Below, piece after piece: positions 27,275 through 30,208 of a DNA stretch of 64,000 nucleotides. Each line of letters opens with the position of its first letter. Position 1 is the first letter of the stretch. The DNA lies in assembly GCF_025602895.1 (NCBI RefSeq), contig NW_026516236.1:372001-436000 (forward strand), written 5' to 3'. Below the pieces are notes generated by a model. That model saw only the letters and a list, made by a program, of their open reading frames with translations. It made no database searches and had not been told where the DNA came from. This DNA is from Polychytrium aggregatum. Lineage: Eukaryota > Chytridiomycota > Chytridiomycetes > Polychytriales. Both the position numbers and the translations under genes were made by a program.

Positions 27275-29579
27275 TCACTTGCGGAACTCGGCCACGGCGG
27301 CGGTGATGAGCTCGCCGTGGATGCCGGCAGCGGCGTCGTAGTAGTCCTCGCTGAGTTCCCAGGCAAAGACACCGAGGTTCCACTGCTTAGCAAACTTGAC
27401 CTTCTGCTGGATCGACTTGGTGTCGTCGTAGGTGATGAAAACGCTGGTGTTGGTGTTGACGAGGGTGGGGGCCTGGATGGTGAAATTTGTCGCACGCGGC
27501 GCAGCAGCAACAGGAGAGCAGTGAGTCGAAGGCATAGCCAGCGATACCGCAGCGGAGAAGCAGCTCGATATGTGAGAGATGGCTTGGCAGCTGTCAAGTA
27601 GCTTGGCCTGTGAAACCCGGCCTTACCTGGATCTTGCCGCCGTGCCAGGTGCGGACCCAGGGCTTCTGAGCCTTGGACTTGGACACCAAGACACCCTGCT
27701 CGCGAAGGCCACGGTAGGACCAGTCGCCCGAGACAGTGGGGACGCCGGTGCATGGGTCAGGGGCAGGAGTGTCGTACTTGTCGCCCTGGATGGGAGGGCA
27801 CGCCTGCGGGTTGTTGGGATCAACTTGGGGGAGGCAGAGCTGGAAGACGCCGTCGCCCTTGACAGGAGCACCGAGGGCGATCGAGTGGCCGTTGAATTCG
27901 AGGCCCAGACGGAGCTTGCTGGCGGGGATGCCGAGCTGCTTGACAAAAGTGGTCACGGTCTGGTTGATGGAGACGTCGCCGTTGGGGCTGCTGGCATCGC
28001 TGTAGAGCGGAGTGTTGTAGTCGGTGTAGGGGTTCCAGTTGCCGTTGTAGTCGTAGGTCATAACTGCACCAGCGCGTCGATGAGGAGGATTTCAGCGAAC
28101 ACATAGGCGTCAATAGAGTTGATACTGCGTGCCACAATCCGGACTGGTGGTAATGCTGGCCAGTTCGAGTCCAGACAGGGACTCGGGTGGAGGATAGCGT
28201 GTCGCTAGTGCCATTATCAAGATGATACGGACACGCTGTTGCCACATCGAGAGACATTGCTGGAGGCAGCACGACACCCGACAGACTCACTGTTGATCTT
28301 GTCGAGAGTGTTGGCGTAGACGGGAATCCAGTTCTTGCCGGAGCCATCGGAATAGGTGGAAGCGGTGGCGCCGATGGCAGCGGTGATGGGGTGGCTGCTT
28401 CCAATCTTCTGGCGCAGCAGAACGAGGGTCTTGTTGAAGTTGGAGTAGTCGTCGGGGCTGATGACGTTGCAGCCAGCACCGTAGTTGTTGGGATATCTAC
28501 GAGAGGGAGGGAGAGGGACAGCACCATGAGACAGCGAGCGATGGAATGCGATGAGACAATATCGGGTGGACTGATGGGGGCCGACGGAGAAGCAAGGTTA
28601 TACTCACTCCCAATCTGGCAAAGTGAACGAAAACTGTGTGAGTGATTGGCGGCGCAGCTGCGTTGACAAAACGCCAGGAACGTTCGCCTCATGGATCAAG
28701 TCGATCGAACGTCGGTGCGGCAGTGTGCGACGCGAGACTCTAATCCGTACCAATGTCGATGCCGTCAAAGCCAAGCTGCTTGATGAGAACGTCGTAGGCC
28801 GAGTTGACAAAGGCCTGGCGGTTGGTATCGTTGAAGGCATTGGAAAAGTAGGTGGATGCGGTCCAGCCTGGCAACAGAGCCATCGACAGAGAGTGTCAGC
28901 AAGCCAGAACAGACAGGCTTGTGTCGCAACAGAGGGCCTGCAGGCAACCACCATCCATTTCCGGGCACTGGGCGTACCTCCAATCGAAGCACTTGATACC
29001 GGCAAGTTGAGGATGGAAGCAGTCGCGTGCAACGGTGATGACAATGGGTCAGGGGCGATGTGGATGGATCAGCGGCGGCGCTGGTGTGGATCGGCAGCAG
29101 CAGCCCAGAGCAAGCAGCCCGCAGCCGTGGAGGGCGCACCGGGCCAGAATCAAGGGCGAGGTAGTCTGCAGAGCAAAGACAGACAAGCGACATACAGAGT
29201 CTTGAAGCCGTATTTCTTGCGGAGCTGGCCGTTCAGCACAGGGATGAGGTTGGCATCGGCGCTGGAGTCGGTGGAGAGGACGGTGCCGTTGGAGGCAACT
29301 TGGAAGAAGGCTGCGAGACACAGAGCGGTCAATGAGACAGTTGCAGCGGCAGGCTTGGTCTGGACGATATCCTCGGGCGAGCGACCATGGCCGCGGCCGT
29401 GGCTGCCTCGTACCGTAGATGACCTGGTTGATGTTGCTGAAGTTGATGCTGGTGTAGTCGCGGTCGGTCCAGTTGGGGATGTAGGCGGCAAAGTCCTGCT
29501 TGGGCACGGGGGTGGACACGGCGGCGGCCGAGCAGAAGGAGGCGAGGGCAAGGACACTGCTGACGAGGGCGAGTCTCAT
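27275..29579 (-). CDS. Secreted GH18 chitinase
   Basis: GH18 enzymes cleave beta-1,4 linkages of chitin by a substrate-assisted mechanism. Eight exons join in frame: 29414-29579, 29196-29310, 28977-28990, 28751-28867, 28608-28614, 28291-28496, 27627-28063 and 27275-27472, giving 419 residues. A signal peptide (MRLALVSSVLALASFCSA) leads into a TIM barrel: AAYIPNW (strand 1), INQVIYAFF, KTLASIGGW (SxGG motif), GFDGIDIDWEYP (DxxDxDxE, with the catalytic Glu), DKINIMTYDYNG and, late, NLGVFAWELSEDY. No chitin-binding module or GPI signal is visible. Two exons, of 14 and 7 nt, carry the SxGG and catalytic motifs. The preserved phase and restored motifs support this model. A role in wall remodelling or zoospore release is inference. 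Confidence 0.93.
28608..28614 (-). other. 7-nt microexon in the chitinase catalytic motif
   Basis: On the minus strand ATTGGGA is bounded by a CAG acceptor and a GTGAGT donor. It joins exon 28751-28867 (ending GACATTG, donor GTACGG) to exon 28291-28496 (after a GTAG acceptor). Together they encode DIDWEYP, completing the GH18 DxxDxDxE motif. Without it the motif and reading frame are lost. Confidence 0.85.
28977..28990 (-). other. 14-nt microexon at the chitinase SxGG motif
   Basis: TGCTTCGATTGGAG on the minus strand lies between an AAG acceptor and a GTACGC donor. It supplies most of LASIGG between KTL (29196-29310) and GWTAS (28751-28867). Phase is preserved on both sides (2 in, 1 out). 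The AAG acceptor is less typical, so the left edge is slightly less certain. Confidence 0.75.
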
Positions 29580-30208
29580 GGCGGCGATGGAGATCCGTTG
29601 GAGGAGGTGGTGGCGGATGCGAGAGAGAAAGCGACGAAGGCGGCAGAGGCCAGCGGGAAGTTTGGATGGGAACGGCAACGACGGCGGGGATGTTGCTGGG
29701 GCAAACACAAGAGCAAGGGACCGAAGGGGCGCTGAAGGGTGGCAACAGCGACAAAGGGTCGGCAGAAACAAGACCCGTGGGGAACTGGCGCCCGAAGCCA
29801 GCCCGAAGCCAGCCAGCAGTGTCTGTTTGCTGCGCACCGTTGTGTTGGCTGTGGCCCATCACGCCATCGCACATCCACGCGCTCGGCTTGTGCACGGAGT
29901 GGGACCGCGCTGCCCCAACAAGCGCTCGTGTGAGCGGCGGCGCGCGCCAGCAAGGGCGGTGCTGCGCAAAGAGAAAAGGCGCGCGCGTGACAAGCCACCC
30001 GAGTGGCACGGCTGTGCAGCGCAGCCAGATCCAGCCGGATCCAGTCACTCGAGCCAGATCTAGCCGGATCCAGCCGGATCTAGCCACAGCTCAGTCGCTG
30101 CGCAGTCCGCCCTGATCCCATCCGATCTGCGAGGCCAGCATCCAACATCCAGCATCCAACATCCAGCATCCAACATCCAGCATCCACCAGCCCACAAGTC
30201 CTCCTGCC
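29580..30208. promoter_or_regulatory. Divergent region between the chitinase and RAD54B
   Basis: These 629 bases separate two divergent start codons. The right third contains repeated tagccggatc/agccggatc blocks at about 30024-30085 and the 14-bp tandem repeat at 30139-30187. No additional gene is supported. Confidence 0.4.
30139..30187. repeat. 14-bp tandem repeat (catccaacatccag, 3.5 copies)
   Basis: The unit catccaacatccag is itself two near-identical heptamers. The array ends about 22 bases before the RAD54B start codon, so it lies in the 5' UTR or core promoter. Confidence 0.85.

Follow-up and report, generated by a model that had tools for sequence, protein, structure and literature searches.

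A 7-nt and a 14-nt microexon in the signature motifs of a predicted GH18 chitinase gene of Polychytrium aggregatum

The 64,000-nt stretch of DNA analysed here (the window; contig label C268) holds on its minus strand, at 29579-27275, a gene of the GH18 family. When the exon boundaries were set by the splice boundaries common to the paralogues of this gene, it split into eight exons of 166, 115, 14, 117, 7, 206, 437 and 198 nt. The seven introns are each GT-AG, and the joined reading frame runs through 419 amino acids with no internal stop. The features referred to below are as follows.

29414..29579, minus strand: exon 1, with the start codon and an N terminus that by eye resembles a signal peptide, ending in QVIY plus one base (gene model)
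29196..29310, minus strand: exon 2, with matching boundaries and phases in the paralogues C101 and C408 (gene model)
28978..28991, minus strand: exon 3, a 14-nt microexon, TGCTTCGATTGGAG, encoding ASIGG (SxGG motif; gene model and genome-wide pattern)
28751..28867, minus strand: exon 4, ending in GFDGIDI plus the first base of the Asp138 codon (gene model)
28615..28750, minus strand: intron 4, 136 nt, GTACGG...CCAG, its donor ranking 21st of 23 among the introns of the family
28608..28614, minus strand: exon 5, the 7-nt microexon ATTGGGA, with two-thirds of the Asp138 codon, the Trp139 codon and two-thirds of the Glu140 codon
28497..28607, minus strand: intron 5, 111 nt, GTGAGT...GTAG, which interrupts the codon of the catalytic Glu in phase 2
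28291..28496, minus strand: exon 6, whose first base completes the codon of the catalytic Glu, followed by YPNN (gene model)
27627..28063, minus strand: exon 7, with the MTYDYNGNW stretch (gene model)
27275..27472, minus strand: exon 8 and the stop codon (gene model)

Two tandem repeats lie upstream of the gene, at 30135-30186 (CCAGCATCCAACAT, 3.7 copies) and at 30022-30085 (a degenerate 10-nt unit, 6.5 copies).

Comparison of the spliced protein with the profile PF00704 (Glyco_hydro_18) gave an E-value of 5.8e-56, the match covering positions 2-317 of the 317 in the profile. The DxxDxDxE motif reads DGIDIDWE (residues 133-140) and ends in Glu140, which we take to be the catalytic acid of GH18, while the SxGG motif reads SIGG (residues 96-99) and is coded by the 14-nt exon together with the adjoining base pair of the exon that follows it. 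The best matches among solved structures were chitinase 5gzu, presumably a bacterial enzyme (E = 2.9e-68), and 5xwf, the fungal chitinase of Rhizomucor miehei (E = 4.2e-37). With named chitinases as its closest solved relatives, the gene would appear to be a GH18 chitinase gene of the secreted type, its activity being predicted.

The sequence-only reading of the window had proposed that the DxxDxDxE motif is completed by a 7-nt microexon, ATTGGGA (28614-28608, minus strand), and both the sequence and its comparison with the paralogues bore this out. The flanking introns have the lengths then given, 136 nt (28750-28615) and 111 nt (28607-28497), both are GT-AG, and joining the exons yields GFDGIDIDWEYP in the correct phase within the open 419-aa frame. 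The further claim that the microexon encodes the catalytic core holds only in part: the motif is complete only when the exon is included, but Trp139 is the one residue that the exon specifies whole, its other four bases being divided equally between the codons of Asp138 and Glu140. A second microexon, absent from that reading, is the 14-nt exon at 28991-28978 (minus strand). Both are coding exons of no more than 30 nt with canonical splice sites on either side, which is what is meant here by a microexon. Since SxGG lies on the 14-nt exon and the end of DxxDxDxE on the 7-nt exon, both diagnostic motifs of GH18 sit on microexons.

The splice routes leading from 28751 to 28496 were enumerated, allowing GT-AG introns of at least 40 nt, outer sites moved by up to 12 nt and an optional middle exon of up to 60 nt. 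Of 54 routes in the window copy, five had the motif and four of these contained a stop; the one that was open used the 7-nt exon with unshifted sites, so that no other in-frame route to the same motif was present among them. Alternative routes in the paralogues were rejected on the same grounds, since among the 58 in C171, the 90 in C101 and the 86 in C61 an open frame with the motif came solely from the 7-nt exon joined at unshifted outer sites. That leaving the exon out would destroy both frame and active site, as had been stated, also proved right: its omission shifts the frame and leads to a stop after codon 207. Indeed, because 7 is not divisible by three, skipping can yield only a truncated frameshift product. 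Skipping of the 14-nt exon in the window copy led to a stop after codon 127. The joint skipping of both microexons, whose 21 nt are a multiple of three, was considered as a possible in-frame isoform and rejected, a stop being met after codon 127 in the window copy and after codon 125 in C101. When intron 4 was retained, translation stopped after codon 140 (GIDIGTD-stop); when intron 5 was retained it also stopped after codon 140, directly behind the catalytic Glu (GIDIDWE-stop). A large part of the GH18 domain would be missing from every product of skipping or retention.

Across the whole 64.7-Mb assembly the pattern AGAYTGGGAGTRAGT was found at five places, all of them in this GH18 subfamily, and at none in a control in which it was read backwards. 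These five places comprise two near-identical pairs (C268/C171 and C101/C61) and the single C223, and therefore represent three distinct genes; the 7-nt exon occupies the same codon positions in all of them. Dinucleotide shuffling of the 254-nt interval of the window copy produced the string AG-AYTGGGA-GT in 2 of 40,000 trials (counting only the 7-nt form), and shuffling of the 333-nt interval of C101 produced it in 5 of 40,000. Together these results confirm the 7-nt exon as genuine, its splicing being predicted. The pattern of the 14-nt exon was found at six places (the window copy, C171, C101, C61, C408 and C7), again all in this subfamily and with a backwards control of zero, and the exon is kept in all six copies that extend to the SxGG region.

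The paralogues differ in how much of this arrangement they retain. C171 is a near-identical copy of the window gene (2303 of 2305 aligned positions the same), the only indel between the two being a 5-nt insertion in C171 (window position 28619), ∼4 nt upstream of the acceptor junction of the 7-nt exon; it is allele-like, and may be either an allele or a duplicate. C101 and C61 form a second near-identical pair (2475 of 2479 positions) in which the microexon reads ACTGGGA, the C101 protein being identical to that of the window copy at 204 of 406 residues (∼50%). C408, with 223 of 405 residues identical and an intact GH18 frame, has no intron 4: ATT-GAC-TGG-GA is continuous, and the later intron interrupts the Glu codon at the same base as in the window copy. 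Its DNA matches that of C7 at 2186 of 2188 aligned positions, and in this pair the 7-nt unit is fused to its upstream neighbour, with no separate exon. Finally, C223b (on C223, at about 1121017; locus L018 1020-2243 corresponds to C223:1121019-1122242) is a 5′-truncated copy that starts at the microexon and has an intact downstream frame, with 233 of 280 residues identical to the window protein. Searches with tblastn and blastn over the 9.9 kb preceding it and the 4 kb following it gave no credible match to its exons 1-4; the best candidate (E = 0.002, 35% over 43 residues) was rejected, as it lay downstream on the opposite strand and both GH18 motifs were missing from it. At L018 2798-2932 there is a 57-nt inverted repeat, 96% complementary with a 21-nt spacer, which resembles two ends of a DNA transposon or MITE placed face to face; one arm recurs genome-wide, with at least 80 matches among those listed (40 of 420 candidates scored). 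A similar stretch was seen by eye upstream of the C101 gene.

The genome contains 63 segments matching PF00704, three of them in the window and 53 in the 28 loci examined; the set excludes seven (on C118, on C68, at C57:550253, two on C386 and two on C223 near 262 kb). The 28 loci were scanned for the motif with a single regular expression; L018 and L021 escaped it and were read by eye. In another GH18 subfamily (C46, L021 932-1047) an intron lies inside DxxDxDxE, by eye 2 nt upstream of its position in the window copy, and the profile search with PF00704 showed the same segment break in C391. The genome also gave six exon-sized matches within 2 kb to Cluap1 (PF10234, a ciliary family; 0 of 14 control genomes) and 71 matches to chitin synthase (PF03142, also matched in 4 of 14 control genomes), which fits a flagellated fungus and agrees with the chytrid assumed in the sequence-only reading.

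Relatives from outside the genome were taken from the best 80 of 587 loci (25-36% identity); a search of viral contigs gave three weak loci. A tree built with 16 of the best 80 of these 587 outside (bacterial) loci and four other GH18 frames of the same genome had the topology ((window copy, C223b), (C101, C408)), with ultrafast bootstrap/SH-aLRT supports of 98/94 for the window copy with C223b and 100/99 for C101 with C408; the latter rose to 100/100 when C223b was left out. The NG86 estimates, whose ratios are rough at dS values this high, gave dN < dS in all four pairs compared: 0.095/0.819 for the window copy and C223b (a ratio of ∼0.12), 0.470/1.047 for the window copy and C101, 0.438/0.655 for the window copy and C408 (∼0.67) and 0.303/1.611 for C101 and C408.

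In the simplest history, which is also the most likely, the 7-nt exon is older than the split of the paralogues that bear it, intron 4 having been lost precisely in C408/C7. Intron 4 lies at the identical base and in the identical phase in the window copy and C101, and begins with the same six bases (GTACGG), which argues for shared ancestry. The exon might instead have arisen twice, by parallel gain of an intron in the lineages of the window copy and of C101, in which case C408 would show the original, fused state. Because the four outgroup GH18 frames from the same genome have no intron at the motif, the step count is the same for a gain followed by a loss as for two parallel gains; moreover, the intron lying 2 nt away in the C46 subfamily indicates that the motif can accept introns repeatedly and has probably acquired one more than once. 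Parallel gain would nevertheless have had to reproduce position, phase and the GTACGG start in both lineages, and we regard it as unlikely.

Our preferred reading, to which we give a probability of about 0.85, is that the gene has two constitutive microexons (14 nt at SxGG, 7 nt at the end of DxxDxDxE) which were made by introns inside conserved motifs, are needed for the enzyme and are spliced in an ordered manner, the 7-nt exon being old and its upstream intron lost in C408/C7. The sequence, the frame, the phases and the conservation among paralogues are observed. On this reading, spliceosomal introns inserted within the two motifs would have created both microexons, and we infer that each short flanking intron is recognised singly (intron definition). 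Every one of the 23 introns compared, from four genes, is GT-AG, and they measure 89-227 nt; introns 4 and 5 are thus not unusual in size, which makes their recognition one by one possible. Two splice complexes hardly fit on 7 nt simultaneously. As the 7-nt exon would be too small for both sets of splicing factors, introns 4 and 5 would have to leave in sequence.

The donors were ranked by a leave-one-out score over the 23 introns, all from one gene family and with small differences in score. The donor of exon 4, TTG/GTACGG (junction after TTG), ranked 21st of 23 in both the window copy and C101, and that of the microexon, GGA/GTRAGT (junction after GGA), ranked 11th in the window copy and third in both C101 and C223b; in C408, whose 7-nt unit forms part of a long exon, the corresponding donor is GTGTGT (rank 16). 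Candidate branch points of the form CTRAY were present in 6 of the 23 introns. Most likely, intron 5, with the better GTRAGT donor, would leave first; once it had been removed, only the acceptor of the microexon would be available to the weak-donor intron 4, so that skipping would then be impossible. A faulty product would end at the catalytic Glu or close to it, and its degradation is to be expected. We put forward the order of intron 5 before intron 4 as a hypothesis borrowed by analogy from plants, in whose microexons the downstream intron is more often the first to be removed (PMC8831610). The weak-then-strong order of donors does not apply to the 14-nt exon: the donor preceding it and the one following it ranked 17 and 14 in the window copy, 19 and 22 in C101, and 9 and 5 in C408.

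It had also been suggested, as speculation, that inclusion of the 7-nt exon is a point of control, skipping or intron retention turning the chitinase off under some conditions. Skipping does ruin the frame and the active site, each flanking intron gives an early in-frame stop when retained, the weak exon-4 donor of the window copy and C101 (rank 21 of 23) could also favour inefficient splicing, and C171 carries a 5-nt indel close to the acceptor. In an invertase gene of potato, the exon that is skipped in the cold is reportedly the 9-nt one. Cold-induced exon skipping in a potato invertase gene (PMC8483784) and the glucose-dependent microexon of Trichoderma Xlr2 (PMC11121469) offer precedents. 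Against such a switch, no clearly shared intron element was seen between the window copy and C101, the two full-length microexon-bearing paralogues: their intron identities were 0.56-0.72, compared with means of 0.57-0.66 in 30 letter shuffles (differences of at most 0.07), and their acceptor tracts differ, the pyrimidine fractions of introns 4 and 5 being 0.68 and 0.91 in the window copy and, in the opposite direction, 0.86 and 0.55 in C101. Introns 5-7 of the window copy and C223b align at 0.67-0.69, a figure given without a shuffle control. In addition, C408/C7 keeps an intact GH18 frame with no separate exon, and the product of skipping is a frameshift, with no second working protein. Switch-like microexons are usually, if not obligatorily, a multiple of three in length, which leaves both isoforms in frame (PMC11121469); the 7-nt exon does not have such a length. 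Regulated inclusion is therefore improbable. It is very doubtful, too, that the out-of-frame 14-nt and 7-nt microexons act as a splicing checkpoint, both being required for the full enzyme and their inclusion tuned to the state of growth, with C408 having escaped at the 7-nt exon through intron loss; a retained intron 5 would end translation exactly after the catalytic Glu. That the 7-nt exon is a chance match, an assembly error or part of a pseudogene, and is not spliced, we dismiss as highly improbable: although its splicing is predicted from DNA, its presence at five places on five contigs and in three distinct genes, the coding conservation, the intact frame and its appearance in only 2 of 40,000 shuffles all speak against this.

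In the gene models, one fungal chitinase subfamily carries both diagnostic motifs of GH18 on microexons. Gene predictors that pass over such exons would lose catalytic residues and might call the enzymes inactive or broken. The paralogues (copies with the 7-nt exon kept, copies with it fused, and one copy truncated at its 5′ end) provide a small natural series on the splicing of a 7-nt exon and on intron gain and loss, and the 5-nt insertion in C171 a ready-made natural test of acceptor variation. Among titles and abstract openings, no earlier paper was found to describe a microexon in a GH18 chitinase, most subscription papers lying outside this search. Tiny exons in sugar-cutting enzymes, and exons of 5-6 nt in fungal enzyme genes, are already known.

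The closest parallel comes from the acid invertases of plants (GH32), in which a 9-nt microexon encodes the D-P-N/D-G/A of the beta-fructosidase motif (PMC8831610). In both cases a very small exon bears part of the signature motif of a glycoside hydrolase and is conserved across genes; here its position and length are conserved among the paralogues, with C408/C7 lacking it as a separate exon, and plant microexons, according to the same source, can likewise vanish by fusion after intron loss. The two differ in that the 9-nt exon keeps the frame whereas the 7-nt exon breaks it, in enzyme family and kingdom, which are unrelated, and in that the plant exon rests on RNA data while the one described here is known from genomic sequence. 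Among fungi, the bglA beta-glycosidase genes (GH1) of basidiomycetous yeasts, of which four were compared, have smallest exons of 18, 5, 6 and 64 bp; they resemble the present gene in that they encode a fungal glycoside hydrolase and, in three of the four, have microexons flanked by short introns, but belong to another family, and the accessible text of PMC9142197 does not link their tiny exons to catalytic residues. The P450 genes of Phanerochaete chrysosporium, with exons down to 6 bp, similarly have microexons throughout a fungal enzyme gene family, although the present gene encodes a hydrolase and the P450 exons are not linked to a catalytic motif in the available part of PMC1184071. Xlr2 of Trichoderma virens (PMC11121469) shares with the GH18 gene a fungal microexon that is required for a key domain, but it encodes a transcription factor, and its isoforms are reported to depend on glucose.
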